DNA of 48,525 nucleotides, taken from positions 1 through 48,525 of the forward strand of contig CAKZNC010000198.1 of NCBI GenBank assembly GCA_937129385.1, read 5' to 3'. The stretch's first letter is position 1. Each line of letters starts with the position of its first letter. Both the position numbers and the translations under genes were made by a program. The notes beneath the pieces were generated by a model that worked only from the letters and a program-made list of their open reading frames with translations, was not told where the DNA came from and ran no database searches. This document shows, in pieces, positions 8,995 to 48,525 of this stretch. This DNA comes from an uncultured Bacteroidota bacterium (GTDB lineage: Bacteria > Bacteroidota > Bacteroidia > Bacteroidales > GCA-2748055).

Positions 8995-10029
8995 TTAAAA
9001 ATAAAATGGTGCTTTAGAGATTACCTTTGTAAGATTATCATATCGGAATATAATTTCAAATGCATTGTCAAAATATCCAGGGGTTGATGACAGGCTGAAA
9101 TCCCATGAGAGCCCCAAAAGTCCCTTACCGTCAAAAATCTCGAAATTGATGTTGACTGCAAGATCATTGGCAGATTTGTACGTTGTTCCCACCCAGAATT
9201 TCTCTTCTATCAATCCAAAGTTCAGGCTGACCATGTAATCCAGGTTGCGAAATCCGATCGCAGGGACATAACTTAGAAGACAGTTGGGATAGATGGTCAG
9301 ATGGTCAGTTTTAAATTTCTTTCCGACCGTATAGAGGAAATTGTAATTGGAGATGAAAGTACCCGTATCCAACGTATCCAGAGGCACCACCGGATCCTCA
9401 GCCACATCGGGGTCATAATTGTTCTTGTCGACCAGTACGCCGCCTGGAAGCAACCTGGGAACAGAAAGCCCGGTAAAAAATTCGTTGTCAAACGTATAAT
9501 ACAACACCCCGAAACTGAAATTACCAGTCAGCACCGGTTCAAAATCTGAAGCAAACCATGGATCTCCAGGCTGCCTGACATCAATCGAACTGTTGTCGGT
9601 TTTTTTCAAACCAAGAATACCAGACAATCCGAATGAGAGCCTCCCTCCACTCTTTAGTCTTACGCGGTGCGAATAATAACCCGAAAGGTTATGCCGGGAA
9701 AGCGGTATCGGCTCACTGAAGTTTATCCCAAGTGGTCCGAATCCCGGGAGTTTCTCATTGTAATAGGAGAATCCGAAAGCGTTGCTCTGTGAATTCGCGA
9801 AAGGGGAGTGCAAGGAAAACTGGATAAATTTCGGCGCTGGAAAGGTGGGATCCAGAATTGCATCATCTTTGGAGAAGAAAGAGAAGCTCATGACATCCCT
9901 GGATCCTGAAAAGGCCGGATTGAAGATCAGCCAGTTGTGCTGGTAATTGGTAAGATCAGGCAAAGCCCCATCCTGACCTCTTGCGAAGGTCAGTGCAAAC
10001 AGCAATATGAATATGGCCCTGATCCTCAT
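8995..10029 (-). CDS. PorP/SprF family type IX secretion-associated outer-membrane protein
   Basis: A 344-residue beta-barrel protein with an N-terminal signal peptide ending near FARGQ. The PorP/SprF signature is plain: YQHNWLIFNPAFSGSRD near the mature N-terminus, followed by alternating strands (FGFSYYNEKLPGFGPLG, SGYYSHRVRLKSGGRLSFG) and an aromatic C-terminus ending in F. SprF in Flavobacterium is needed to secrete and anchor the adhesin SprB, a type B T9SS cargo. Here the gene sits 3 bases after a giant type B cargo gene, which is the arrangement expected for a cargo-specific PorP/SprF partner. Several paralogues per genome are normal, so I give no symbol. Confidence 0.93.
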   Translation of the reverse strand: MRIRAIFILLFALTFARGQDGALPDLTNYQHNWLIFNPAFSGSRDVMSFSFFSKDDAILDPTFPAPKFIQFSLHSPFANSQSNAFGFSYYNEKLPGFGPLGINFSEPIPLSRHNLSGYYSHRVRLKSGGRLSFGLSGILGLKKTDNSSIDVRQPGDPWFASDFEPVLTGNFSFGVLYYTFDNEFFTGLSVPRLLPGGVLVDKNNYDPDVAEDPVVPLDTLDTGTFISNYNFLYTVGKKFKTDHLTIYPNCLLSYVPAIGFRNLDYMVSLNFGLIEEKFWVGTTYKSANDLAVNINFEIFDGKGLLGLSWDFSLSSTPGYFDNAFEIIFRYDNLTKVISKAPFYF

Positions 10030-10032
10030 TTG

Positions 10033-13000
10033 TTATCTTCTCAAAATGATATACCCCTGTTTAGTCTCTTCTTCGATGATCTCACCGTTCTTCCTGATAC
10101 CGAAATGGAGCGTATAATAATAGGTTCCCGCAGGAGCCACCGTCTCTTTTCCCCTCAGGGTCCCGTCCCAGATGATGTATTCCTCCTCATCCACCCCGTC
10201 AATCTCCACTGTGGAAATCACTGCCTCCTGATCTGTTATCTCATATACTTTTGTTCCCCAGCTGTTAAACAATGTGAAGGTGAAGAATACCCCTTCGTTA
10301 TTCAGTCCCGGGATCACAAACAGCTGGTTCAGCGGATCATTATCCGGTGAGAAACCATTATATTGCCTGAGATCATGCTGGATCACCACCAGTTCATCTT
10401 CATGCACCGCACATTCCACCCCATTCTCGATCGTCCAGGTATATACATGTTCCTGCTCAAGTTCAAAATCAGTTGCGATTGGAAGCGGGTCATCGGTAAA
10501 CCCTGCGCCTGAGTCGTCAACGTCCCAGTAAGAGATCCCCACCTTCAGTTCCGGCTCATCGGCGAACAGGTTATAGGTCTGGTCAAAATAAAATTCAGCC
10601 GTATCCTTCAAAAGAGACAATTCCTCCACCTCCTGGAAATGTGCCACGTGCACCCAGGCCGTATCTGAGCAACCGTTCAGACTTTCGTCGGTTAAAAGCT
10701 CGAATCCATAATAGATCTTCATGGTATCATTGTACCACTGATCCAGCAAGGCAGTGGTAACCATTTCTGTGGAGGTGAATGTAACTGTATCAGAACCGTC
10801 CAGCGCCACCTTCGCAGTTGAAGCAAACCATTTCCAGTCAATACCCCCTGTATTGCTGGCAGTGAGGGTAATTTCAATACCACAAACGCTTGTATCTGAG
10901 ACTGTCAGTGTAGCAACAGGTGATTCAAATACCAGGACTTCGGGCTGATTGGGATCCGGCGATTCAGAAACACACTGCCGGTTGTCCACGATGCTGTCAA
11001 GTGTGAAGAGATAGGTTTCTGCAGAATCGGCAGCCACATATACCGGAAGAACAGGATTCGCGGTCACATCGAGATCAAACACTTCGGAATCCGAATTATT
11101 TTCAGATATATAGCTCACATATGCTGAATAGGACTGCGCATTCGGATCCAGTTGAAGCGGATCCAACTGCAGGTTCACGGGCCACTCAGAGGCGCAGACG
11201 GTATCTTCCTGGGATGCAGCGAGAAGCAGTCGGCCCGCAGGCAACTCAATCGGTTCCACAAGCAGTACAGCGGTCGTATCATCACAAGCACCTGAGGAGA
11301 TGATTCGTCTCAAGTAGACAGTATTCCTGAAGTCGTTACTGCTGTAATCAAAATCAGCCTGGGTGGTCACTCCAGAAAAGTCAGATTCGCTGCTTGCCTC
11401 CCATACCGGACTGTAATTTCCATCCCCGCCTGACATCACAGCGCCTGATGTGGCTGCGACCAGGATATCTTCACCGGCACAGATTGAATCGAAGTCCGAA
11501 GAAAGTATCTCCCCGTTCAAACTGATCATCCGATTGTCCTGGATCGGCCCCTGTACCTTGATGATGACAGAGTCCTGCGCAATACTCGTACAAACCGAAT
11601 CCGTTTTTCGTGCCCACACCAATCTCCTGAAGTAAACTGTATCAGAAAGGGACCCGGAATACTTGTAGTCCCATGAAAAACCGCCTGCCGGTTCGGGCGC
11701 AGCCTGCCAGTTTCCAGGTACATCTTCATCCATCCTGTACTGCCATTCGATCCCAAGTTCATCAGAGCCACTTGATGCCACCGCACCGGTAAAGACAGCA
11801 GCAGTGGTGTCTCCAAAGCAATAGGTTTCATCCAAAGGGGTGATCGTGTTACCAGAGATCGCCTCAACAATATCAAGGGTGACAAATTCAGAGGTGTCTT
11901 TACAGACATCTGCTTTGCCTGAAAATACCACTCTTCTTATATAAAGGTCACCTGGGGTATCCAGGTCAACCTGGTCCGGCGCGAGGGTCTGGTCGGACGA
12001 TAATGCTGACCAGACCGAAAGGTCACTGCTCTCCTCCCAGGAATACCTGTAATTCCCATCCCCGTCCACTGGCAATGATCCAGTAAGACCATCCCCCTCA
12101 AGCAGGTCAAACTGACAAAGTGTGATCAGTGCATCTTCCAGGATCAGGTTGTTCCGGATGGTATCCAGCACCCTAACAATTTGAATTTCCGTTGTGTCAA
12201 CACAGGAACTGTCGGCTCCTGAATAGACCAGTCTCCTGAAAAAGTGAGTAGAATGAAAGACCGAATCGGTATAGTCGAGATCCTGATCTTCACCCATCGC
12301 GTCAATAAATGGTCCGGAGGATGAGAATGACTTTTCCCAAGCATAGTCATACGACCCATTGCCCCCTTCCGGCACACTGCCATCAAACAGTTCGGGTGAT
12401 TGTCCCCAGCAAAGTGTGTCTTTCGTCGATACCGTATTGTCGGTAATTGAGTCAAGCACGGTGATGGTGATCGTATCCGAAATGCTGGTACAAACCCCGG
12501 AATTCACCACTCTCCTGAAATGGGTATTTTCCATCAGCACTGGAAGGGAATAGTCACGCTCATCATTCACACCGGCGGCCGGAACCGGGGTTTCCCCGTT
12601 CACATTCCATTCCTGCCAGGCAAAGGTGGTGTCGGTGCTCACATGTGCACCACTCAGCGTATCTACAGGCTCCAGGTTGGTATAGGGATCGATTCCCTGG
12701 CATGCCAGCAAATCGTCGGTAGCGATGAGATTGCCCTGGATGGCGGGAAGAACATTATAGGTGACAGCTGTTGTCAGACTATCAGTCAACGCACCGATCT
12801 TCACCACGCGTGAATAGTGCATCGTAGAGTCCAATGGTGCTGTGAATTCATAATCCTCCTGGTCATTCACCCCCGGAGCCACCTCCCAGTTGATGGAGTC
12901 ACTGCTTTGTATCCAGGTGATCTCAGGTTCCGAACCATCTCCACCCTTTGGAGGAGCCGCATCGATCTTCGGAGGGATGATGTTTGAACATACCGTAATA

Positions 13001-14409
13001 TCATCAGGAAGAGAGTTGTAGACCAAACCGTTCAACGGAGCCGAAAGATCGTTAATGATCCCCGCTGAACTGCCAGATAAACTTCCCGGACCTTGAGCTT
13101 TTGTGGTGATGTCTGCATTCAATAGTGGACTTGTCTCCTGTAACCAGTATGCTCCACCACCCCCTGCGCCACCATCGCCGCCCTCGCCGCCTGCTGTTGT
13201 TGAATTACCCCCATTTCCCCCGATGGCCGATAAGGTTAGTGTATTCTCATATCCATTTACGGCAAGTACAATATTTCCACCAGCACCTCCGCCACCACTG
13301 GCACCATTGGTGGAATCTGACACAGATTCGCCGTTTGCATAGATTCCGCTCACCCCATCAGTCTCTATGGTATCCGCAATGATCACCACGATCCCGCCGC
13401 CATCTCCTCCCGCAGTGGCTGGATGGGTCGCATCCTGTGTTCCTGTTCCTCCGCCGCCGCCAAAGAATATGCGATTGGGGTAATTTTCCAGATTTATTCC
13501 TTCATAGTACCAGCTCTTAAAACCCATTCCTGCTTCCCCTCCAACAACTAGCGGGTAAGATTCACACCCACCGCGCTGACCGCCACCTCTTGATCCCTGA
13601 GAATAGTTTCCGCCACCTCCACCACCCGAAAACATGGCGTTTCCACCACCACCCCCAAGAATAAATTTTCCTTTTCCCCGTGTTTTCGTATAGGTAGTCT
13701 CAACCGGTCCTTCTCCTTTTCTTCCTGCCGAATCCATAGCTGAAGCTGGATAATAATTTTGCGTATATGCGTTGCTGACAGGATCATAGCAATCGCCATT
13801 ATAAACATCGCCTGCCGGATCCGCACCGGAAAACCCCTTTCCGTCCATATTGATATCGGCATTCAGGATCAACCTGTTCTTTACAAACAATACAAGTATC
13901 CCGCCATATCCATTAACGGAATCCCAACCCGGTGCAGTGAGCTCCCCGGTCACCCTGGCATTCTGATATACCGGCACTTTGATCAGCTGGGCCACCCATC
14001 CCTCACGCCGTCCGGGATCTGGTGCATCCGCAACATCTCTAAAGCCTGTTGCAGCATTGAATTCGATGGTATCGACCCTGATGGTGTCAACAATGAACAG
14101 GGCATAGTTCCCGGTATTTGATCTGTAACCTTCAAACTCGCCATTTGTTGTATCAAGTTTAAGTCCTTTCAGAATATAGATCATCACGTAATCGCCGATC
14201 GCAAATTTCTCCGGCTCCTCCACCACCACCCAGTCATGCTCGTCAGTGTGCGTAATGTCCCAGTCTGTAATATTGCTATAGGCATTATCTGAATTCCCTG
14301 AAATATTGACGGTCTGCCCCATAACCATCCCGCCCCCAAAACACATGAGAAGCAAAAAGGGCAAAAGCTTTGCCCCTTTGAAGCTAAAGAGATTATTGTA
14401 CGCCATCAT
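10033..14409 (-). CDS. Large T9SS type B (CHU_C) adhesin-like surface protein with six tandem repeats
   Basis: A 1458-residue secreted protein. The signal peptide is about 1-32 (LLPFLLLMCFGGGMVMGQ). Residues about 245-425 form a glycine-rich region with runs such as GGGGGNAMFSGGGGGGN. Residues about 464-1055 hold six consecutive repeats of about 95-105 residues, each with an early Cys, a central Trp and a late signature like YxRRxVxSG. The C-terminus (about 1360-1458) is the gliding-motility-associated/type B sorting domain, with FSPDNDPLN, LFNSWGTKVYE, IWDGT and APAGTYYYTL, ending GYIILRR. Such proteins are exported by T9SS and used in adhesion or gliding. The start could be either of two adjacent ATGs. 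The next gene is its probable PorP/SprF partner; 114 bases separate it from the kinase gene upstream. Confidence 0.92.
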   Translation of the reverse strand: MMAYNNLFSFKGAKLLPFLLLMCFGGGMVMGQTVNISGNSDNAYSNITDWDITHTDEHDWVVVEEPEKFAIGDYVMIYILKGLKLDTTNGEFEGYRSNTGNYALFIVDTIRVDTIEFNAATGFRDVADAPDPGRREGWVAQLIKVPVYQNARVTGELTAPGWDSVNGYGGILVLFVKNRLILNADINMDGKGFSGADPAGDVYNGDCYDPVSNAYTQNYYPASAMDSAGRKGEGPVETTYTKTRGKGKFILGGGGGNAMFSGGGGGGNYSQGSRGGGQRGGCESYPLVVGGEAGMGFKSWYYEGINLENYPNRIFFGGGGGTGTQDATHPATAGGDGGGIVVIIADTIETDGVSGIYANGESVSDSTNGASGGGGAGGNIVLAVNGYENTLTLSAIGGNGGNSTTAGGEGGDGGAGGGGAYWLQETSPLLNADITTKAQGPGSLSGSSAGIINDLSAPLNGLVYNSLPDDITVCSNIIPPKIDAAPPKGGDGSEPEITWIQSSDSINWEVAPGVNDQEDYEFTAPLDSTMHYSRVVKIGALTDSLTTAVTYNVLPAIQGNLIATDDLLACQGIDPYTNLEPVDTLSGAHVSTDTTFAWQEWNVNGETPVPAAGVNDERDYSLPVLMENTHFRRVVNSGVCTSISDTITITVLDSITDNTVSTKDTLCWGQSPELFDGSVPEGGNGSYDYAWEKSFSSSGPFIDAMGEDQDLDYTDSVFHSTHFFRRLVYSGADSSCVDTTEIQIVRVLDTIRNNLILEDALITLCQFDLLEGDGLTGSLPVDGDGNYRYSWEESSDLSVWSALSSDQTLAPDQVDLDTPGDLYIRRVVFSGKADVCKDTSEFVTLDIVEAISGNTITPLDETYCFGDTTAAVFTGAVASSGSDELGIEWQYRMDEDVPGNWQAAPEPAGGFSWDYKYSGSLSDTVYFRRLVWARKTDSVCTSIAQDSVIIKVQGPIQDNRMISLNGEILSSDFDSICAGEDILVAATSGAVMSGGDGNYSPVWEASSESDFSGVTTQADFDYSSNDFRNTVYLRRIISSGACDDTTAVLLVEPIELPAGRLLLAASQEDTVCASEWPVNLQLDPLQLDPNAQSYSAYVSYISENNSDSEVFDLDVTANPVLPVYVAADSAETYLFTLDSIVDNRQCVSESPDPNQPEVLVFESPVATLTVSDTSVCGIEITLTASNTGGIDWKWFASTAKVALDGSDTVTFTSTEMVTTALLDQWYNDTMKIYYGFELLTDESLNGCSDTAWVHVAHFQEVEELSLLKDTAEFYFDQTYNLFADEPELKVGISYWDVDDSGAGFTDDPLPIATDFELEQEHVYTWTIENGVECAVHEDELVVIQHDLRQYNGFSPDNDPLNQLFVIPGLNNEGVFFTFTLFNSWGTKVYEITDQEAVISTVEIDGVDEEEYIIWDGTLRGKETVAPAGTYYYTLHFGIRKNGEIIEEETKQGYIILRR

Positions 14410-36633: not shown

Positions 36634-39600
36634 TTACCTGGGGAGTACCTTATAGGTATGCGGTAATAGCTGCGGATGTGATACTCTAACAATATAGAGT
36701 CCGGTGCCTGGCTGAAAGGGCAATTCAACCTGGTTCGAGCTACCGGATACTTCCTTTTTAAAACACAGGGCTCCTCCGGCAGAATAGATTTCTATTGATG
36801 TTCCTCCGGGGAGTTTTCTTGAGAACCTGACAACAGGACCCTCAAGCGGCACAGGATAGATCCTGGTTTCTTGGAAGTAATTAACCGGGACAGTATTTGT
36901 CTCTTCAAGTACTTCCACGATGAGTGATGCACTGAGTTCGTTGTCCTGGTTACTTGTGAAGCTGATCTCCGTGATTCCTGTAGCATATGCCGCCACCATA
37001 CCTGTCTGGGTTACCGCTGCGATTTCAGCAACCGACGATGTCCATGCACCCGATTTATCAGCTGCATCTGAAGGAACAAAGGTAACGTGCAGCAACTTGT
37101 AATCCCCTGGATAAAGCTTTACTGTGTCATATTCAAAATCCAGGCTTTCAAGCAATACAGGATCAGGGGCCCTCTGAAAAAGGAGGTAATTAATGTTGAA
37201 TCCGGAATTGACAACAGAAAAGTTAAATACAGAATCATCCGGGGTCAGATGAATGATCTCGTCCAGTTCCTGATCACGCCAGGTGATCCAGCCACCGGTG
37301 CTGGAAGCAAGTGAAGAGACGCTCCTATCCCCAACAATGATCTTATATAATCCCTGCGTAGAGGGAGCAGCAATGTTGGCTGTCACAATGTAATCTGCCT
37401 CTTCCTGTACATCAATGCTGTAATTTGCCCAGTCTCCCTCACCCAGCCATCCAAGATATTCTGTTCCGTCAAATTCAGTATCCCCTGTCCGGATACGCCC
37501 GGAAGAACTCACATCAAGGGAGCTGATGTAGTGCTCCATCTCTACCTTCCCCGGGATCACATTTTCAGATGCGACGACGATCACTACTGTATCGGCAACA
37601 CCATTGCTTCCTTTGGCTACAGCGAAGGTGATACCCTGGCTCCCGGATCTGACCTGCCCATATTCATCGAGTGCCAGGATAGCGGTGTTTTCCGTCTGCC
37701 ATACAAGCTTCTTGTCAGATGCATTTACCGGATCAAACAGGACCTGGAGGGAAATTTCTTCATTGGGATCCAATCTGATGGTATCTTTTACCTCCCCGGA
37801 ACCTGTTTCAACGATCTCGATTCCAAGGAGCTCAAAAAAAGGGAGCACTTTGACAAATAGTGTATCTGCTGCATCTGATTCGGCTGCACTTACAACAATA
37901 CTGGTTTCGCCCTCCCCGGCACCTGTAATGATCCCCCGCTCATCCACTATGGCAATGTCGGTATCCAGGCTGGACCATGTAATATTTTGATTCGATGCAT
38001 TGAAGGGAAAGACATTGACATGCACCGAATCTGACAATCGATCAGAGATGGTGATGCTGTCCCTCTCCAGTAAAATATTCTCCAATTGTACGCTGGCTAC
38101 GTCTTCCCAAAGAGAAAGATACCCGTAGGTCGCTGTTGCAGGCCCCATTGTCTGATGCACCGTAAACTCATTTGTTTCGACACAACCACCCCAGTCAAAA
38201 TAAACTTCGTGTGCAGGCCACAGGACAGGTTTTCCAAATACACTGTATGGGTACAAAGAGTTTTGCTGCATTGCATTGGTTCCCGTCCATGCCACATTGA
38301 TCGATACCCCGTATACGATAGTGCCTGGTATGGAAGTTCCTTCAGCATCCGGGTTCAGCTCCTTGATGGCTTTTGTATCCGTCGCCAGCAGTTGCTGTGC
38401 TGCATCCTCCGCACCTATGGATTCAGCACCCGTGATCCACGTAAGATTCATCGGATTTCCTCCATTGTAATAGTCTGCCGTGGTATACAGGTAATCAAGG
38501 ATCTCCGGGTCCCTGGTAAGGTAATGTGCCATGATCACATCAAGCAGGACGGGAGCGGATGATTCACCCAGCCACAGGCGATCTGTATTATTCCTGATAA
38601 CCCGTGTTGCGTTGTTTTCTACGCCAGACAGACCGGAATTCTCAGCCCAGTTGATCACCGCCTGTTTCTGCATCTCTTTCAGTTCAAAATCCATGTTTGA
38701 ACGGTTGGTGGTCACATACAGCCAGGTGGCATAACTTTGAGAATTTCCTGCATTCGGCTCATCTACGTAGGTGTGCAGTTTGTAATCGTCCAGGTATTGT
38801 TTCTCCCCGGTAAGTTTAAAAAGCGCCGCCGCTGCATATGCTCTTTCAAGATGTAACGAATCGGCATTCACTGCCCACTCGTAATGTGCCTTGGCTGAAT
38901 TAGTCAATGTATCCACCTCTTCCATCCGATCGATTAGCGTCAGGCAGTAGGCAAGATGCGCTTCACCACCAGCAAGCAGGTAGGTGGGCTGTGCCTCTTC
39001 TCCATAGGCATACCATTGGTCGTATCGCTCCTCGTCCCACGAAGGACTTCCGTTGTGACCTGTGGTCTCCAGTCCACCGCAGGCACCCCCGGTGGGTCCG
39101 CCGAGGTTGCGATAAAAATCAATTACCCAGCGCGCCTCATCCAGGAAGTCCGGGATTCCGTTTCCGCTTTCCGGGATATTGTATTCATCGTCTTTAAAAC
39201 TTCCGGGAGCCAGTTCAAACACCTGCAACATGTTTCGGGCGATCCTGAAATGGTTTGGGTTTTTGTCATAATCGCCTGCATCAAAATATCCACCGACTCC
39301 CCAGTCGTCATTCATCCATGGTTGCCGGTTGTTGGGCATGTTCCATTCCGTGGCGTTTGCCGGCAGGTCAGAGAATGCATTTTTTCCCCTGGAATACAAC
39401 CGGGTACTGTAGGTTACTGAATAGTTACCACCATTGGTCACCCCGGGAATGTGATCTGCAGGCTTGATCCAGTCGGTATGCTCCAGCGTACGCTCCGGTC
39501 CGCTCCTGTAATGATACAATCCGCGCGAGGTCAAACGCACCAGGTCTTTATATACATTACGATCCACCCTGAAAACGTCGGAAGTGCCAATTCCATCAAT

Positions 39601-40281
39601 AACCAGCCGGAAGACCCCCTCCTGTGAAAAGTCAGAAAAATCACATTCCCACACCGGGGAGCCATACAGTCCCTCCGGCATCACCTGGTCTTTTGAGTCC
39701 CTGGCATTATTGGTTTCCTTCTCCATTCTGAATGCTACGGTTCCCGTATATACCACCTGCTCACTCACCGTGTCGATGAGATGGAATTCAGCCCCTTCAT
39801 AGGTCGTCATATCTGCCGCTCCCAGGGTTCCCATCCATTGGTGCAGGTAGGCATATTTCTTCCGTGCATCGGGATTGTAGCCGATATGGTTCAGGTGGAT
39901 TGATTCGGAGTTGACCTTCTCCTCTTCGAAAACAAATGTAAAGCCATCCCCGGAGGCCAGAGAAGGATAGGTAACAGTGTAGGTGCTCCCCGGATTCAAT
40001 GAATGGGGCAACTCAAGGTACATCCAGTACTTGGTGCTGTTTCTCCATTTCTTGGATTTCCTGCCAACAGCCAGGGGAGGTTGCGCTGCAGAATAGTCGG
40101 GATCGTCCGGACTTGAAATTTCATACGTGCTTGCCTGTTCAGCAGTACTCACGCTGATCCCCTCAAACCATAAAAGAAGATATTCAGAATTTACGGTACT
40201 GTATTCCAGTAAGCTGCCAGCTTTTACATGCGTGTTGAATATAATCAGCAGGACAAGGATCAATAGTCTTCTCATTTTCAA
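36634..40281 (-). CDS. Glycoside hydrolase family 9 enzyme with CBM6 and T9SS type A tail
   Basis: A 1215-residue secreted enzyme. A signal peptide (about 1-21) is followed by an N-terminal Ig-like domain of the CelD type (about 120-250, ESIHLNHIGYNPDARKKYAY) and a GH9 (alpha/alpha)6 catalytic domain (about 255-725). FDAGDYDKNPNHFR carries the expected base pair Asp334/Asp337, and TNEFTVHQTMG carries the probable acid Glu705. Next come two BIG2-like Ig domains (about 740-900), a CBM6 module (about 910-1040, starting KVEMEHY), a third BIG2 domain (about 1045-1120) and a type A T9SS sorting domain (about 1135-1215, IYPVP ... GLYIVRV). GH9 enzymes cut beta-1,4-glucans; the exact polymer is inferred only. 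It is the last gene of the glycosidase cluster and has its own promoter candidate. Confidence 0.92.
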   Translation of the reverse strand: MKMRRLLILVLLIIFNTHVKAGSLLEYSTVNSEYLLLWFEGISVSTAEQASTYEISSPDDPDYSAAQPPLAVGRKSKKWRNSTKYWMYLELPHSLNPGSTYTVTYPSLASGDGFTFVFEEEKVNSESIHLNHIGYNPDARKKYAYLHQWMGTLGAADMTTYEGAEFHLIDTVSEQVVYTGTVAFRMEKETNNARDSKDQVMPEGLYGSPVWECDFSDFSQEGVFRLVIDGIGTSDVFRVDRNVYKDLVRLTSRGLYHYRSGPERTLEHTDWIKPADHIPGVTNGGNYSVTYSTRLYSRGKNAFSDLPANATEWNMPNNRQPWMNDDWGVGGYFDAGDYDKNPNHFRIARNMLQVFELAPGSFKDDEYNIPESGNGIPDFLDEARWVIDFYRNLGGPTGGACGGLETTGHNGSPSWDEERYDQWYAYGEEAQPTYLLAGGEAHLAYCLTLIDRMEEVDTLTNSAKAHYEWAVNADSLHLERAYAAAALFKLTGEKQYLDDYKLHTYVDEPNAGNSQSYATWLYVTTNRSNMDFELKEMQKQAVINWAENSGLSGVENNATRVIRNNTDRLWLGESSAPVLLDVIMAHYLTRDPEILDYLYTTADYYNGGNPMNLTWITGAESIGAEDAAQQLLATDTKAIKELNPDAEGTSIPGTIVYGVSINVAWTGTNAMQQNSLYPYSVFGKPVLWPAHEVYFDWGGCVETNEFTVHQTMGPATATYGYLSLWEDVASVQLENILLERDSITISDRLSDSVHVNVFPFNASNQNITWSSLDTDIAIVDERGIITGAGEGETSIVVSAAESDAADTLFVKVLPFFELLGIEIVETGSGEVKDTIRLDPNEEISLQVLFDPVNASDKKLVWQTENTAILALDEYGQVRSGSQGITFAVAKGSNGVADTVVIVVASENVIPGKVEMEHYISSLDVSSSGRIRTGDTEFDGTEYLGWLGEGDWANYSIDVQEEADYIVTANIAAPSTQGLYKIIVGDRSVSSLASSTGGWITWRDQELDEIIHLTPDDSVFNFSVVNSGFNINYLLFQRAPDPVLLESLDFEYDTVKLYPGDYKLLHVTFVPSDAADKSGAWTSSVAEIAAVTQTGMVAAYATGITEISFTSNQDNELSASLIVEVLEETNTVPVNYFQETRIYPVPLEGPVVRFSRKLPGGTSIEIYSAGGALCFKKEVSGSSNQVELPFQPGTGLYIVRVSHPQLLPHTYKVLPR

Positions 40282-40415: not shown

Positions 40416-43016
40416 TCAGGCCGTCACAGCAACGATGCGGTGTGCCAGAGATCCCTTCACCGTAAATGTGATGTAGTCGGATTTTTCGACAGACTTTCTC
40501 TGCACATCCACAGGATGATCATCAATTGTCACCTCTGTAATGGTCTTTCCTTTCGGTACCGGGAGCTCCACGCGGGTTTCTTCACCGCTTCCCGTAAAAT
40601 CAATGACCAGTCGTTTCCCTTTCCACTGGTACTCATAGCTGAGATACCCGCCTGATGCTTCGTATTTGGCATGTACCTTCACCGCTTTTACACCGGCTGC
40701 ATTCCAGCGCGGTGCAAGCCTGGCCTTGTTGAAAGCAACCCCGGCATCCCTTACACCGGCAAGACCTTCCATCAATCCATACATACATTCAGCTGCTGCC
40801 CAGTGCTGCGGGATCGTGGACAGGATATTGGGTTTAAAATAGACCTCCTTATCCGACAGTGTCAGTCCGAGGATCATCCATTTCGAATGATCTTTCTGCG
40901 CCTCAAAACGAAGATCTTTTACCACCTTTCCCGGTTCCGGGTTGTTCATCCCATAGATCACGACGCCAACCTTTGGCGATTGGTTGTTCGCTCCGATCCA
41001 GGCAGTATGCAGGTATTGCATATCTTTTTTTGACAAAGACACTTCGGGCAGCCACCAATTCTTTACTGATACAGGAAGACCACTGCCACCCACCGAGGAG
41101 ATGTATTTTGTCACGGAAGACCCGTCGGCATAGTTCCAGGTCATGCTGCCTGCAATGGCCCCGCCACCCATACAATGCAGGAAATAGAGGGAACCTGCCT
41201 TCCTGTTGATGCCGATCACTGCATCTTTTCGATATCCTTCAACTCCCGAGATCGCCAGCACAGATCTCCGTCCATTGCTTACCGGATCCACAATATCGAA
41301 TGGAATATCTTTAAACACCTGGTTCCCTGTCGGGAATTCATGCAGGTCATTGTCCCCTTCATTGGTCCATCCCATGACTCCTTCGGGTTTTTTACCTGTG
41401 CCAACAATGTCGGCATTTGCCAGCTCCCTGAGATCAAGCTTTTCAAAGGTCCGCTCCGGTGCCTCTTCAATGGCCCCCTTGTAGCAGCCGTGTAAAATCC
41501 GGTCTGTTTTGATGGCAAGTTCACGGATCCTCCGCAGGATATCCACGCCATACACTTCGAACCCGTGTTCGAAACAGGCCAGTGCCAGTTCCCCTGCCGC
41601 AATGGGTGACACGCCCCCATTCATATAGTTCCATTTTTTGGCCGACCACCCTTTTTCAAATGGTGGATAGCAGCAGTACCACTCCCCCGGTGAGCTCTTC
41701 GGCATTTCACCCCTGATCCGCTGATACGTCTGAATGATCGATTTCACCTGCTCATGCCCCATCAAACCCCTGTTCAGGATCCATGCATTTGACATGGTCA
41801 CCTGCTTTGTTTCATCCGTCCCCCCAAAATCACGCTCCACCTCCGGCTCCTCGGGAACCCAGTGGCGATAGAATTCGCCATTCCACGACAGGTCATCGAT
41901 CCGCTGTTTGATCTGCTTTGCCACCTCTCTCGCCTTCCCGGCTTGCTCATTCCATTGTGCATAATCCAGCATCTCCGCAAGATAATTGCAACTTTGTGCA
42001 AATCGCACGTTATCGGCATACAGGATCCCGAAATGTGATTTATCCAGGTACACACGCATCGTATCCCCGGAGATCTTCGTGTCATAATCGGACTGGAAAT
42101 CCCAGATATCGATCGTGTACCCCCGCTTTGTCAGGTTGAATTTCTCGCTCCAGCGATAGGGATCGGTAAGCGTGTAGTTCATTGCCCTGAGCATGCTGTC
42201 CAGCTTTGTCATCATCCACCTGTCGTCACCCGTTGCTTTCCAGGTGTGGTACACCGCCTCCATGTATGTAAACTCGGCCATGTTTTCAACGGGTACACGT
42301 ACAAACAGACTGCTCGAGTCGGGATCTTCGGGAACCGTCACGAAATTCCCGTAATCGAACCTCCGTACCCAGGGACCTCTCGGATCCCGGGGATGCTTGT
42401 AATTGTCATGGATCATGCCATCCTCGCGCTGCCCTTCAGTATACAGGTCCACCCCCGATTTCAATTCCGGTTCAAAATAGCGCATGCCCAGCATGGCATA
42501 CATATGGTCCTGGAACCAGCTTGAGAACTGGAGGTAGTGATCTCCATTCATCCTTTTAAGTGCTCCCCTGTTGTAGCTGGACCCCATCAATGTATATTTC
42601 AGGATCTCCATCAGGTCGGAAAACTCCCCACCATCATCCTCGATCCCGGTCCTGCAATTCACCGGGAATGTTGCCATATCGACGGGATTGCCCCACCTGT
42701 TCTCGAATACCACCTGGTGGATCCCCAGCACTCCGGCGGCCTTGAACCTGATGAATGCTGTTGCTTCTGTCCTGAAATACTCGTTGAAGGCCCCGTCATA
42801 GACAATGATGGTTCCGTTTTCCGGGGATGAGATGGATACCGTCTCCAGCGGCTCAAAATAGCTGCCCGACGAGGGCGGGGTGAGCCGGATCTCATCGCCG
42901 TCCTTCGGACCCTCCATCATTTTCCCGCGATCAATGCCCAGGAGTCCGTTTGCTCCCACAGTGGCAAATCCCCCTGCAATCAATGACTTTTTCAAAAACT
43001 CTCTCCTGTTGTCCAT
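40416..43016 (-). CDS. Twin-arginine-exported six-hairpin glycosidase-like protein, family unassigned
   Basis: An 866-residue protein. It starts MDNRREFLKKSLIAGG, a textbook twin-arginine signal, so it is probably exported folded. An Ig-like beta domain (about 40-130) precedes an alpha-helical region (about 140-600) with helix repeats typical of (alpha/alpha)6 glycosidases, for example YMEAVYHTWKATGDDRWM, NYLAEMLDYAQW and WNYMNGGVSPIAAGELALACFEHG. A C-terminal beta-domain (about 620-866) ends with PVPKGKTITEVTIDDHPVD. I cannot name its GH family or its catalytic residues. It follows another six-hairpin protein by 19 bases and a GH172 gene before that, so a role in polysaccharide breakdown is likely. 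Confidence 0.82.
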   Translation of the reverse strand: MDNRREFLKKSLIAGGFATVGANGLLGIDRGKMMEGPKDGDEIRLTPPSSGSYFEPLETVSISSPENGTIIVYDGAFNEYFRTEATAFIRFKAAGVLGIHQVVFENRWGNPVDMATFPVNCRTGIEDDGGEFSDLMEILKYTLMGSSYNRGALKRMNGDHYLQFSSWFQDHMYAMLGMRYFEPELKSGVDLYTEGQREDGMIHDNYKHPRDPRGPWVRRFDYGNFVTVPEDPDSSSLFVRVPVENMAEFTYMEAVYHTWKATGDDRWMMTKLDSMLRAMNYTLTDPYRWSEKFNLTKRGYTIDIWDFQSDYDTKISGDTMRVYLDKSHFGILYADNVRFAQSCNYLAEMLDYAQWNEQAGKAREVAKQIKQRIDDLSWNGEFYRHWVPEEPEVERDFGGTDETKQVTMSNAWILNRGLMGHEQVKSIIQTYQRIRGEMPKSSPGEWYCCYPPFEKGWSAKKWNYMNGGVSPIAAGELALACFEHGFEVYGVDILRRIRELAIKTDRILHGCYKGAIEEAPERTFEKLDLRELANADIVGTGKKPEGVMGWTNEGDNDLHEFPTGNQVFKDIPFDIVDPVSNGRRSVLAISGVEGYRKDAVIGINRKAGSLYFLHCMGGGAIAGSMTWNYADGSSVTKYISSVGGSGLPVSVKNWWLPEVSLSKKDMQYLHTAWIGANNQSPKVGVVIYGMNNPEPGKVVKDLRFEAQKDHSKWMILGLTLSDKEVYFKPNILSTIPQHWAAAECMYGLMEGLAGVRDAGVAFNKARLAPRWNAAGVKAVKVHAKYEASGGYLSYEYQWKGKRLVIDFTGSGEETRVELPVPKGKTITEVTIDDHPVDVQRKSVEKSDYITFTVKGSLAHRIVAVTA

Positions 43017-43035
43017 AGTCAGTTTGTAATTTTAG

Positions 43036-45432
43036 TTATTTGACGTCCTCAATTTCAGCATGCACAATAAAATCCCCGGTACATTCCACCAGGAGTTGAT
43101 GCATTGCAGTCCCGGGCAGTTTTGTTATGCTGAATGGTATTTCGTCTCCTCCGGGAGTGCGAATTTTCACCGAAGCACGATCCGGGTTTTCAAACACCAG
43201 CTCAGCACTTACAGGGCTCGACATCCTGAAGATCACCTCACCGGGATTCTCTTCCACATCCAGCAGCCTGGCAGATGAACTGTACAGCCTGAATCCATCC
43301 TGCTTAGCGGTGCGTGAGACCACGATCTCATTCCTTCCAAAACGCATTTTGCTATCGGGAATCTGCAACGAATAGGGAATATGCGCTCCATTGAGGGTAA
43401 AGCTTTCCACTACGTCACCCTTGCCGGAGGCGAAGATATCAAATGAAGAAAGCCTGAACCTGAAATCCAGTAATGTATCCACATTTTCGCTGGCCCTTAC
43501 CCCAATCCCCATGGGCATACTCTGCATCGCCTGGGCCACGGTGGAGAAAAAGAAACTGCTGGCCGAGAACGGGAGTCCCCGCCAGGATTCAACAGCAGTG
43601 TAATATTCAGTCAGCGCACCCTTCATGGGGTATTTCTGTGATAAAACCATCGCTTCCTCAACCTCATCCGACAACATCTCCAGGTAGTCATCCGACGACA
43701 TCCCGTATTCATAAAGGACCCTGGAAAGTGTGTTCCACGGACAGTATCCATACGTTCTTATGCCCGGCCACTTTTGGACAGTCAGCCTGGCGGAATTCAG
43801 CTGCAGATCGGGCACAGGAAAGAAAGGACCCGTTGAGACGGCCCATGCATATTCCCAGTAATCAGCCCCCGTGGCAAAGGGTTGCCAGTATACCGAACCA
43901 TCTTCAAATTCCTGGTACTCGGCATACAAAGTATGATCTGAGGTCGCATACTTTTCAAGGAGCGTCTGCCTGATTGCATTTTCAATGAGCGCATATCTTT
44001 CACTTCGTTCGTGATCAGCATCGGGTCTGCGCGCGAGCATGATCCTTGCCATCTTCAGCAAGTTAAATGTATTCACCTGGTTGTAAAGACTGCCTGCAAC
44101 ACTTAATACCTTGTCGTTATCCTGGAGGTGATGGTTGTTGATCTCAAAATTGCCATTGACCACATCATAGCCAAAATAGGGATTGCTCTTAAGCGGGGTC
44201 TCCCCCCTGGTATCACTTAGAACCATCTGCTTATCTTCATCCCAAACATCCTCCAGGTAATGATCAATCACTTCGAGCAGCAGGTCAAACTCCGGACCTT
44301 TTACCAGGTCGGTATTCCCCGTAGTCTCCAGGTATGTGAACATTGAGAGGGTGGCATAGTAAACCCCGTCATCTTCATTCTTTGTCCAGCGTGTCCCGAC
44401 AATCTGTTGAAAACCCGGTATCTTTTCCCCGTTCTCCTTTGTGAGGATGTTGGGATTGTTGAGCAGAAACCTGGTCCATATCCTGATCAATTCCGGATTA
44501 CCGGCCCTGGCCATCTGTGCGCTTGTCATTGATCCGTCCCTGACCCAGATCAGGTAATAGATCCGGTTGATCGCACCGAAACATGCTCCTCCTTCATCGA
44601 TACCGGAATAGATGATCCGGCGATTCAGGTCCAGGATCTCCTGGATATCCGGCTCATTGAATTTTAGCCGACTGGTCTGTGTGAATGGCGCAATGATCTT
44701 TTCATTCCTTTCAAGCAGCGACCGGAAATCCATTTCCCCAAGTTTCCCGATTACCCGGTTTACCTGCATCCTGTTCTCTTCTCCACCGAATAAAAGCACT
44801 TCGTTTTCGAAGACCTGTAACACATAGTCCCCGGATGCAGTCACGCGAAACCGGTTCTCCTCGAATCCCTTGAAGCTGACAAATGAGACGATCTCCTCTC
44901 CCCTGTCAATAAATTTCTCGGTGAGCAATCCGTCTTCAACGATAAAATCATTGTGCGGTCTGATGGTAATCAGTATCGGGGCCCTCGAAACCAGTGCGAA
45001 GGCATTTTCATCTGCAATGTTGATCATTTTGATGCTCCCCTTTGCTTCCCAGGGGGTCTTGAATCCCAGTTGAGTGAAAAACGGATCATAGTTCCATTCA
45101 TTGATATACTCCACTTTCAGCTGCGGAAGGCTAAACTCCGGGAATAGCACAGTATAATTGTCCCTGTTGGAAAAATTCCTTGCCTTGTAGTCTTTGCGAC
45201 GAAAGGCATTGGGTTTATAAACAACCTCTATGTCCGCCCTGTCTTCAAAGAAGAGCATTGTGGCCCGGTTCCCGCACCTGTTCTGCAGGATGATATTCCG
45301 GGGAGCCTCCTCTACCATTGGTTTTGTATAAGGTCCGCCCATGGAACCACCGGTGTTCTTTTGCTGTCCGTCCAGACCGAAAGCAAATAACAAGAGTAGT
45401 ACCTGTAACAGGATTATCCGCTTTGTATTCAT
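43036..45432 (-). CDS. Secreted six-hairpin glycosidase-like protein, family unassigned
   Basis: A 798-residue exported protein with a Sec signal peptide (about 1-22, LLLLFAFGLDGQ). Residues about 40-230 are beta-rich; about 255-640 are helical with YYLIWVRDGSMTSAQMARAG, GVYYATLSMFTYLETTG and NHHLQDNDKVLSVAGSLYNQ, a GH15/GH63-like six-hairpin layout in which acidic residues of WVRDGS are candidates for the active site. A C-terminal beta domain follows (about 660-798). I cannot assign a CAZy family. It lies 70 bases after the GH172 gene and 19 bases before the Tat-exported paralogue-like protein, so the three are likely co-transcribed and act on one glycan. Confidence 0.82.
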   Translation of the reverse strand: MNTKRIILLQVLLLLFAFGLDGQQKNTGGSMGGPYTKPMVEEAPRNIILQNRCGNRATMLFFEDRADIEVVYKPNAFRRKDYKARNFSNRDNYTVLFPEFSLPQLKVEYINEWNYDPFFTQLGFKTPWEAKGSIKMINIADENAFALVSRAPILITIRPHNDFIVEDGLLTEKFIDRGEEIVSFVSFKGFEENRFRVTASGDYVLQVFENEVLLFGGEENRMQVNRVIGKLGEMDFRSLLERNEKIIAPFTQTSRLKFNEPDIQEILDLNRRIIYSGIDEGGACFGAINRIYYLIWVRDGSMTSAQMARAGNPELIRIWTRFLLNNPNILTKENGEKIPGFQQIVGTRWTKNEDDGVYYATLSMFTYLETTGNTDLVKGPEFDLLLEVIDHYLEDVWDEDKQMVLSDTRGETPLKSNPYFGYDVVNGNFEINNHHLQDNDKVLSVAGSLYNQVNTFNLLKMARIMLARRPDADHERSERYALIENAIRQTLLEKYATSDHTLYAEYQEFEDGSVYWQPFATGADYWEYAWAVSTGPFFPVPDLQLNSARLTVQKWPGIRTYGYCPWNTLSRVLYEYGMSSDDYLEMLSDEVEEAMVLSQKYPMKGALTEYYTAVESWRGLPFSASSFFFSTVAQAMQSMPMGIGVRASENVDTLLDFRFRLSSFDIFASGKGDVVESFTLNGAHIPYSLQIPDSKMRFGRNEIVVSRTAKQDGFRLYSSSARLLDVEENPGEVIFRMSSPVSAELVFENPDRASVKIRTPGGDEIPFSITKLPGTAMHQLLVECTGDFIVHAEIEDVK

Positions 45433-45502: not shown

Positions 45503-46702
45503 TTACTCATCTTCGATCCGCTCATTCCCCCACGGATTGCTCTCCTGACCCGCATTTTTTCTCCATTCATGCCGCCAGCGGTGAATATCGATCATATTGA
45601 TCACCGGCATTGGTTGACGCTCCTCTTTTGAGGGTATCGGCGCAAGCTTAACAGGTTCATCCTGGTACCAGTAGGCTACACTGGCGAGCTCCAGGGTCAG
45701 GTAATTGTAATGCCCGTGCTCGATGGTGAACCGGATGGACTCATCAAAGAAGATGGGATCTTCGATATGGAACCTGTATACATGCGTTCTTCCCATCCAT
45801 CCAAGCTGATCGGGGACCCGTCCGTAACCGAAATAGGGATGCTGGTAGATCTCGTTGGGACACCAGCTGGTGTTAAAATAATCCTCTGTTCCCGTGCCGT
45901 GAAGGGTAGATTTTTCATCACCATCAATAAAGAACATGTCATCACCCTCTCCGTACCAGATCGGTGTGGGACAGTTCACAAAATAATTCACTCCTACATA
46001 GTGTCCCTTCCCTTCTGTTTCCATAAAGAGATAATTCCGTTCCCCTTTTGGGTTTTTTCCGGGGGGCGAATCCAGGATGTCCCATTCATTCTCCCCTTCC
46101 TCAGCCGCTTCCGTGACCTGGTGGTTGTACCAGGCATGGAAATAGGCCAGGTCATCGGCAGGTTTTTTCAACTCAACATAATCGATGTAGTAATAGAAAG
46201 CGCTGATCTCTGCATCGGCCTGGTTTTCAATTTCAATCCTCGCCCCTTTTGCAAAGGGCATTTTGAAATAACTCACCAGTGCATTTCCTTTTACAGGTGC
46301 TGCTGCCAGGGGCATGGATACATACTTGTAGGTCTCGTCCCAACCCTGTCCGAAGAACGGTCCGATGGGACTTTCCACCGATGGATATTCATTGCCATCC
46401 CAGTACATCCGCAAAATGATGTCCGACCTGTTGAGTTTCGGTGCCTCAGGGGCAATGGTGATCCATATATGGTTGATCATTCCGGCCCCCTTGATATCAC
46501 AAAGCGTCAGCTTTTCCCCCGGGGCGATGTGTTCAACCCTGTCGTTGTTGCCCCCCGACCGGTCGTAGCTGCTGATCCTTTTGCTTTTGACATCCTGCTT
46601 GATTGTTGCCAGGTTTTCCATGTTAGACTGACCTGCAACGGAGAGGCTGAAGATGCAACCTGTCACCACCATCACAGCCAGGCTAAAAAAATGCTTTTTC
46701 AT
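45503..46702 (-). CDS. DUF2961 / glycoside hydrolase family 172 enzyme
   Basis: A 399-residue exported enzyme with signal peptide (about 1-24, ending SVAGQ). DUF2961 features are clear: RISSYDRSGGNNDR near the mature N-terminus, GAGMINHIWITI, LRMYWDGNEYPSVESPIGPFFG, and the HGTGTEDYFNTSW segment. DUF2961 is now GH172, whose known members act on fructofuranose- or D-arabinofuranose-containing glycans and assemble into hexamers. The length is typical. A promoter candidate at 46740-46771 makes it the first gene of the glycosidase operon. The actual substrate here is not decided by sequence. Confidence 0.92.
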   Translation of the reverse strand: MKKHFFSLAVMVVTGCIFSLSVAGQSNMENLATIKQDVKSKRISSYDRSGGNNDRVEHIAPGEKLTLCDIKGAGMINHIWITIAPEAPKLNRSDIILRMYWDGNEYPSVESPIGPFFGQGWDETYKYVSMPLAAAPVKGNALVSYFKMPFAKGARIEIENQADAEISAFYYYIDYVELKKPADDLAYFHAWYNHQVTEAAEEGENEWDILDSPPGKNPKGERNYLFMETEGKGHYVGVNYFVNCPTPIWYGEGDDMFFIDGDEKSTLHGTGTEDYFNTSWCPNEIYQHPYFGYGRVPDQLGWMGRTHVYRFHIEDPIFFDESIRFTIEHGHYNYLTLELASVAYWYQDEPVKLAPIPSKEERQPMPVINMIDIHRWRHEWRKNAGQESNPWGNERIEDE

Positions 46703-47649: not shown

Positions 47650-48525
47650 CTAATCTGCATACAACAGGTACTTTTCCCTCATCTGTTTATAAGATGCAAG
47701 GTCTGACTGCCATGACCGGCGTATCTCCTGTTCGGACCAGCCATTAATGATCTGCTTCTTGAGTGCATCCGTTCCGGCAAGGAGATCAAAGAATGGTTTG
47801 AAAAACTGTTGTTTATCAGGAAATGCTGCATAGGCCTCCAGCAGCCATTTCAGCTCGATCTGGTTCCACCCTGCATCGGGTACGTAGTTCCTCAGGTCTT
47901 TCCCATAGCAGGTATCCCCTTTGAATTTGGGGTGCATTTCCATTCCTTCGATGCTCCTGGGGACAAATGAATAATCTCCTGGCAGATCGGGATGACCGAA
48001 CACCTCGAATGGATGCAAGGTCCCCCTGCCTTCACTGATCACTGTTCCTTCAAAAAAACAGGTAGAGGGATAGATCCGGATGGTATGGTCATTGGGCAGG
48101 TTTGGAGAGGGTTTCACCGGGAGTGCATAGTTGTCGGCATGCGTATAATTTTTACAGGGAATCACGGTAACATCACACTGCACTTCGTCTCTGAGCCATT
48201 TTTCTCCATTGATCATCCCTGCGAGCTCTCCCATGGTAAGTCCGTGTACCACCGGAATCGGGTGCATCCCCACAAACGAAGAAAAGGCAGGCTCCAGTAT
48301 GGGTCCGTCCACATAGTTCCCGTTCGGATTGGGACGATCGAGGATGATCAGCGGGATACCGTTCTCAGCACAGGCCTCCATCACGTAGTGCATTGTAGAT
48401 ATGAAGGTGTAGAACCTGGCACCCACATCCTGTATGTCAAATATGACCACATCAATATCCTGTAGCTGGGCGGCCGAAGGTTTCTTGTTGCGTCCATACA
48501 CCGAAACGCTCGGAATTCCTGTCCG
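47650..48525 (-). CDS. namZ: NamZ-type exo-beta-N-acetylmuramidase (DUF1343, GH171), 5'-truncated
   Basis: The frame is open to the window edge, so about 291 C-terminal residues are visible and the N-terminal part is missing. The visible start RTGIPSVSVYGRNKKPSAAQ and the core DVVIFDIQDVGARFYTFI are the DUF1343 signature, followed by ILDRPNPNGNYVDGP, GLTMGELAGMI, PSPNLP, FFEGTVISEGRGT and a C-terminal domain with WNQIELKWLLEAY. NamZ removes N-acetylmuramic acid from the non-reducing end of peptidoglycan fragments and is involved in cell-wall recycling in several bacteria. It is adjacent to, but probably not part of, the GH172-led cluster. Confidence 0.93.
   Translation of the reverse strand, partial: RTGIPSVSVYGRNKKPSAAQLQDIDVVIFDIQDVGARFYTFISTMHYVMEACAENGIPLIILDRPNPNGNYVDGPILEPAFSSFVGMHPIPVVHGLTMGELAGMINGEKWLRDEVQCDVTVIPCKNYTHADNYALPVKPSPNLPNDHTIRIYPSTCFFEGTVISEGRGTLHPFEVFGHPDLPGDYSFVPRSIEGMEMHPKFKGDTCYGKDLRNYVPDAGWNQIELKWLLEAYAAFPDKQQFFKPFFDLLAGTDALKKQIINGWSEQEIRRSWQSDLASYKQMREKYLLYAD

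Follow-up and report, generated by a model that had tools for sequence, protein, structure and literature searches.

We have identified two adjacent genes, P0001 and P0002, whose products we take to represent two uncharacterised glycosidase-like families, ordinary in kind and new in lineage as judged by Pfam, NCBIfam and solved structures. In the reading that we consider fairly probable, P0001 is an exo-acting, inverting hydrolase of the clan GH-L type, P0002 is a second glycosidase of the same superfamily, and the two are co-transcribed and act on one glycan. We are more hesitant, and slightly inclined to doubt, that the proteins found two separate new families, in which the P0001 family would be a new lineage with clan GH-L machinery whose two deep clades keep one pocket, an R-N-F-S-N-R-D block of P0001 reaches the active site from the N-terminal beta-sandwich, and an insert of P0002 sits at the loop of the catalytic base and forms part of the active site. 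Throughout, a new family means one without a match in Pfam or NCBIfam and without a close solved relative.

The gene pair and searches for known families

The window spans its entire contig (48525 bases). Both genes lie on its minus strand, separated by exactly 19 bases as had been predicted; the pair and its neighbours are as follows:

43036..45432, minus strand: P0001, 798 aa, ATG start, predicted six-hairpin glycosidase-like protein with a Sec-type leader
40416..43016, minus strand: P0002, 866 aa, ATG start, six-hairpin-superfamily protein as judged by profiles
45503..46702, minus strand: neighbouring DUF2961 (GH172) protein, PF11175 at 4.8e-82, upstream of the pair
36634..40281, minus strand: neighbouring divergent GH9-like protein, PF00759 at 46.9 bits (cut-off 27.7), downstream of the pair
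47650-48525: NamZ exo-beta-N-acetylmuramidase-like gene, truncated by the contig end

The GH9-like neighbour also carries CelD_N and two Big_2 domains, and its type IX secretion system (T9SS) sorting tail falls just below the cut-off (TIGR04183, 22.7 bits against 23). Farther upstream on the same strand, DUF6992 and NamZ proteins are encoded, and the contig ends within the NamZ gene, truncating the gene cluster there. Elsewhere in the window (8995-14409), a PorP/SprF-like protein adjoins one of 1458 aa that bears a CHU_C type IX secretion signal. P0001 and P0002 would probably be transcribed together and act on one glycan, a shared substrate that we infer. The same genome also encodes a B-type paralog of P0001 (L005; the clades are described below) and a second P0002-type protein (L018).

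Neither protein reached the cut-off of any Pfam or NCBIfam model. This bears out the original prediction that neither fits a family that can be named, and no strong match to a characterised glycoside hydrolase family was found for either protein in these two collections. For P0001, NCBIfam returned nothing, and the Pfam matches were all under threshold and due to chance (LGFP, 17.3 bits, cut-off 22); for P0002, Pfam gave CE2_N below threshold (12.1 bits, cut-off 27.9) and NCBIfam only a weak Tat model. Single-sequence searches of solved structures (PDB) with either protein returned chance matches only, viral contigs held no relative of either, and PHROGs gave no meaningful match. When 25 members of the P0001 family were scanned singly against Pfam at E 0.1, no glycosidase catalytic model was reported; six families were hit, in one member each, including BetaGal_dom2 at 0.062. 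Neither P0001 nor any of the 25 members matched the models of GH15 (PF00723), GH65 (PF03632) or GH94 (PF17167), and the best matches of P0001-family profiles to solved structures had E values of 0.29 (1h54) and 0.51. The corresponding scan of 17 P0002-family members at E 0.1 found MGH1-like_GH (PF22422) in three, at best 4.9e-6, with no match in P0002 itself. GH127 (0.028, below cut-off), GH94 (0.055) and Bac_rhamnosid6H (0.091) appeared in one member each, and the GH116 model PF04685 matched neither P0002 nor any of the 17.

Families are added to CAZy yearly, new beta-1,2-glucanase families in 2025 among them, and one or both proteins might belong to an existing CAZy family that lacks a representative in Pfam, NCBIfam or PDB. 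We regard this as unlikely, though it is the strongest of the alternatives: no curated model and no close solved relative was found even with profiles of 25 and 17 rows, and a search of the open-licence literature, by text and not by sequence, retrieved no paper plainly describing P0001 or P0002.

Probable placement of P0002 in the six-hairpin superfamily

The following features of P0002 are referred to below:

42933..43016, minus strand: Tat-like leader, residues 1-28, with NRREFLKK and a hydrophobic stretch
42504..42518, minus strand: W167-F-Q-D170-H, counterpart of W-x-R-D, with W167 and D170 in 17/17 rows
42099..42110, minus strand: D303-I-W-D306, predicted general-acid segment, with D303 and D306 in 17/17 rows
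40818..41480, minus strand: inserted region, residues 513-733, an insert of roughly 200 residues absent from short relatives

The alignment used for P0002 (A5) comprises 17 rows, from which duplicates, fragments and a number of relatives (e.g. L008, L010, L011, L015-L017 and L019) were excluded. The expected division of one Sec and one Tat signal between the two proteins was recovered: P0001 has a hydrophobic, Sec-type leader, and the Tat-like leader of P0002, which scores 11.3 bits against the Tat model TIGR01409 (cut-off 16.7), has a motif (RRxFLK, RRxFIK or RRxFLR) that recurs in its three closest relatives in A5 (L018, L009 and L007). Three other relatives in the same alignment have no Tat-type leader and are otherwise alike.

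Structure prediction of P0002 from three sequences gave a pLDDT of 38.6 and a pTM of 0.28, and its superfamily assignment comes from profile comparison. With hhalign, the P0002 family matched MGH1-like at 94.2% (218 columns) and GH116 at 95.5% (122 columns; the GH116 comparison set comprised eight of nine chosen loci), as against 4.5% for GH125, 2.8% for GH65 and 1.2% for GH15. The short forms alone gave 94.8% for MGH1-like (321 columns), 94.6% for GH116 and 21.3% for GH125. Against solved structures, the only chain below E 0.1 for the family profile was ExoMA2 (8ic6/8ic7) at 3.3e-6; the profile of the short forms alone found ExoMA2 at 1.4e-4, followed by caspase-3 rows attributable to chance and, below these, a pair of entries with E values of 0.56 and 0.93. 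These comparisons make a second glycosidase of the six-hairpin superfamily, nearer to the MGH1/GH63-like and GH116 enzymes, the most likely reading of P0002.

The original prediction held that P0002 has no obvious equivalent of the WVRDGS segment of P0001, but a W-x-[R/Q/L]-D motif is present, and the residue before D170 is R in 10 rows, L in four and Q in three, P0002 itself having Q. Seven positions are identical in all 17 rows, namely W167, D170, D303, D306, D335, E487 and E750. The general acid would lie within the invariant D303-x-W-D306 segment. In the profile alignment D303 pairs with E411 of P0001, the predicted acid of that protein, and D306 with the Asp of the GH116 TYDIEF motif, which we take to be the GH116 acid/base. 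We discarded an assignment of D303 as the residue aligned to the GH116 Asp, the profile alignment giving D306 instead; D303 and D306 both stay acid candidates. Of the region 513-733, at least seven of nine short forms have no more than two small patches. Since the region lies ahead of the last conserved helix (WAAAECMYGLMEGLAG), we infer that it occupies the loop leading into helix alpha12, the site of the base in GH15 and GH65.

P0002 might instead be a very divergent retaining enzyme of the GH116 line, perhaps a beta-furanosidase working with the neighbouring GH172 protein. The GH116 hhalign score, the pairing of D306 with the TYDIEF Asp and the profile match to ExoMA2 speak for this, and in the available portion of PMC10509167 ExoMA2 works beside a GH172 enzyme. 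However, the match spans only 116-137 columns of the barrel, no member of the family matches the GH116 Pfam model, the MGH1-like link is as strong (94.2-94.8%), and no ORF in loci L001-L082 other than the GH172 gene of the window is related to that GH172 protein. We consider a retaining enzyme of the GH116 line rather improbable. A D-arabinan substrate, considered on account of the GH172 neighbour, was not adopted, given the same lack of GH172 relatives in L001-L082 and the truncation of the cluster by the contig end.

Fold and predicted active site of P0001

In the predicted structure of P0001 and in the family alignments, the following elements were delimited:

44779..45300, minus strand: N-terminal beta-sandwich, strands within residues 45-218 of the model
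45160..45180, minus strand: R85-N-F-S-N-R-D91, the most conserved block of the family, within the N-terminal beta-sandwich
43537..44652, minus strand: twelve-helix (alpha/alpha)6 barrel, residues 261-632 of the model
44536..44559, minus strand: Y292-Y-L-I-W-V-R-D299, loop alpha1-alpha2 into helix alpha2, predicted subsite -1
44200..44202, minus strand: E411, predicted general acid, loop alpha5-alpha6
43606..43608, minus strand: E609, predicted general base, loop alpha11-alpha12
43039..43527, minus strand: C-terminal beta domains, residues 636-798, with strands to residue 794

The model, built from a 25-row alignment, has a pLDDT of 88.6 and a pTM of 0.89, and two linker helices (residues 221-251) join the sandwich to the barrel. 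Twelve helices and glycosidase neighbours in structure space indicate that, in this model, P0001 has the six-hairpin (alpha/alpha)6 glycosidase fold. The prediction of such a core in both proteins thus stands for P0001, where the model is confident, and is made probable for P0002 by profile comparison; the flanking beta-domains that had been proposed are seen in the P0001 model. Foldseek placed GH94 cellobiose phosphorylase first (E 5.0e-18) and GH95 next, with GH15 (1ug9, 1lf6), GH92, GH63 and GH121 lower in the list. With VIA, GH94 8hob (Z 21.9 over 596 residues, 12% identity) and the GH65 alpha-1,2-glucosidase 7fe3 (Z 21.7 over 544) were tied within 1 Z, and human PGGHG 9sd4 followed at Z 20.5 over 553. 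Structural comparison hardly reaches beyond about residue 709, and the top matches include phosphorylases as well as hydrolases.

The putative acid and base of P0001 were assigned from helix counting and conservation. By helix count, loop alpha5-alpha6 comprises residues 397-448 and loop alpha11-alpha12 residues 595-620, and these hold E411 and E609, respectively. The loop around E411 is modelled less certainly (pLDDT 74 for residues 411-420, then 58 and 56 in the next two blocks). In the available portion of PMC8626586, the acid and base of the GH65 hydrolase FjGH65A and of the GH15 glucoamylase TtGA lie on these same two loops, and TtGA Tyr337 and Asp344, seven residues apart, contact the base and the sugar. 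Y292 and D299 of P0001 have the same spacing of seven, and the Asp is preceded by Arg, as in clan GH-L. Conservation was counted over 28 rows, comprising the 25-row alignment A3 (which omits L002, identical to L068, as well as L003, L005 and the fragment L081) with L002, L003 and L005 added, so that the identical L002 and L068 are both counted. E609 is present in all 28 rows, and E411, Y292, R298 and D299 in 27 each, the sole exception being L003, where E411 is replaced by D.

The resemblance of WVRDGS to GH15 active sites, noted in the original prediction, extends to a column-by-column alignment with GH15 W-I-R-D, in which hhalign pairs Y292, W296, R298 and D299 with GH15 Y, W, R and D. The match itself is weak and local (34%, E 4.4e-4, 48 columns; 48%, E 1.8e-4 in another run). 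An end-to-end profile alignment of P0001 with GH15 was discarded, one form covering 27 columns and the other being smeared over 315. Links to other single families were likewise weak, hhalign giving 76% for MGH1, 75% for GH125, 4% for GH65 and 0.4% for GH116. For comparison, families that are all related gave, at similar alignment depth, 1.4% for GH15-GH65 (same clan), 4.4% for GH125-GH15, 0.3% for GH125-GH116, 1.5% for GH65-GH116 and 61.7% for MGH1-GH116. E353 (NEDDG segment) was also considered as the acid of P0001, but L072 and L074 have Q and L003 has D at this position, which lies on loop alpha3-alpha4, and E411 is preferred.

The conservation of the active site and the positions of the loops fit an inverting hydrolase without being proof of one. 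The most likely identity of P0001 is that of an inverting exo-glycosidase with clan GH-L-type machinery, representing a new family. E411 would protonate the glycosidic oxygen, E609 would activate water, Y292 would hold the base, and R298 and D299 would grip the sugar at subsite -1; catalysis by P0001, its anomeric outcome and the division of acid and base roles between these residues are proposed on this footing.

GH94 phosphorylases top both structural lists and share an identical domain plan with P0001, which would suit an inverting glycoside phosphorylase like the enzymes of GH94 and most of those of bacterial GH65. Yet E609, present in every row, lies on the loop that carries the base of GH65 hydrolases, where, in the available portion of PMC8626586, GH65 phosphorylases have their phosphate site. 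P0001 also has a secretion leader in this genome, and phosphate-dependent catabolism would be less usual at that location. A phosphorylase is thus quite improbable, and an inverting hydrolase is preferred. The six-hairpin fold also serves activities other than glycosidase. That one of the two proteins is such a lyase or epimerase, or a non-catalytic binding protein, is nonetheless very improbable, since P0001 finds its best counterparts, in either list, among glycosidases and glycoside phosphorylases, and a Glu is kept at each of the two expected loops, in all 28 rows at one and in 27 at the other.

Within the R85-D91 block, R85, N86, S88, N89 and D91 are identical in all 28 rows and F87 and R90 in 27, in a region modelled with lower confidence (pLDDT 60 for residues 81-90 and 81 for 91-100). 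The block is distant in sequence from the predicted acid and base.

Distribution, gene neighbourhoods and comparison with known enzymes

Relatives of P0001 were found in 4 of 100 related genomes (its own counted, and one weak) and in 4 of 395 genomes of the phylum, three being weak and local. P0002 has relatives in 12 of the 100 related genomes, in 27 of the 395 genomes of the phylum and in 18 of 295 of the order, many of these phylum and order matches being weak and local. A contig scan of genomes yielded 25 P0001-family loci. The tree of 27 different sequences separates clade A (12, including P0001) from clade B (15) with support of 100/100. The family occurs in Bacteroidota, Planctomycetota, Verrucomicrobiota, Lentisphaerota, Kiritimatiellota and Chloroflexota, with Tengunoibacter among the organisms of the tree. 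Several relatives of P0001 start without a hydrophobic leader (e.g. L064, L065, L066, L072 and L074); together with the three P0002 relatives that have no Tat-type leader, this indicates that the place of action varies. In one full-length relative of P0001 (L003, 711-3080, minus strand), eight positions that hardly vary elsewhere have all been lost (Y292, W296, R298, D299, D355, E411, which is D, D423 and W530), and the sequence suggests that this relative is probably a decayed, inactive natural variant.

Among A-type loci (25 neighbours at 11 loci), glycoside hydrolases occur in five (L059, L060, L066, L067 and L068), and four of the 11 carry rhamnose-linked genes:

L058, 5866-7092, plus strand: RhaA-like
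L059, 303-3605: GH106
L067, 11391-13769: GH78
L068, 4407-7913: GH106

B-type loci (20 neighbours at 10 loci) have hydrolases in four (L076, L077, L080 and L082). A GH9 association in L080 was rejected, the protein having Big_2 and sorting domains and no GH9 domain; a neighbour in L077 does carry GH9. The remaining scanned neighbours encode regulators, transporters or housekeeping functions, or have no match. P0002-type proteins occur at 2 of the 25 P0001-family loci, as a short form in L067 and a long form in L082. These neighbourhoods support a general role in glycan breakdown and an association of the two families, and point to no single substrate; the rhamnose signal near A-type loci is only a lead.

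Should they prove active, the two proteins would each serve as the reference for a family that is at present unannotated, with members in at least six bacterial phyla. The fold is close enough to known enzymes that the catalytic residues could be tested with few mutants. The two deep clades of P0001 with one pocket, and the long and short forms of P0002, would offer a natural series for a change of substrate range on one barrel.

The domain plan of P0001 (beta-sandwich, linker, (alpha/alpha)6 barrel and beta domain) is that of GH65, GH94 and bacterial GH15 enzymes. FjGH65A (7fe3) and human PGGHG (9sd4) share this plan and the barrel, and Glu on loops alpha5-alpha6 and alpha11-alpha12 as placed in P0001 by helix count, but identity to these GH65 enzymes is 10% and the GH65 profile score is the low one given above. 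With GH15 glucoamylase and glucodextranase (1ug9, 1lf6), P0001 has in common the Y-x6-D spacing, the W-x-R-D alignment and the fold, whereas it has no GH15 Pfam match and aligns over 48 columns only. GH94 cellobiose phosphorylase is its best structural match, at 10-12% identity; unlike GH94, P0001 carries a Glu, conserved in all 28 rows, where the base is presumed to lie. For P0002, the match to ExoMA2, a GH116 exo-beta-D-arabinofuranosidase, is local over the barrel only. A GH172 enzyme is encoded beside ExoMA2, according to the available portion of PMC10509167, and a GH172 gene lies beside the P0001/P0002 pair as well. The MGH1-like/GH63-type enzymes (PF22422) match the P0002-family profile at 94-95% over 218-321 columns, and P0002 differs from them by the insert at residues 513-733.
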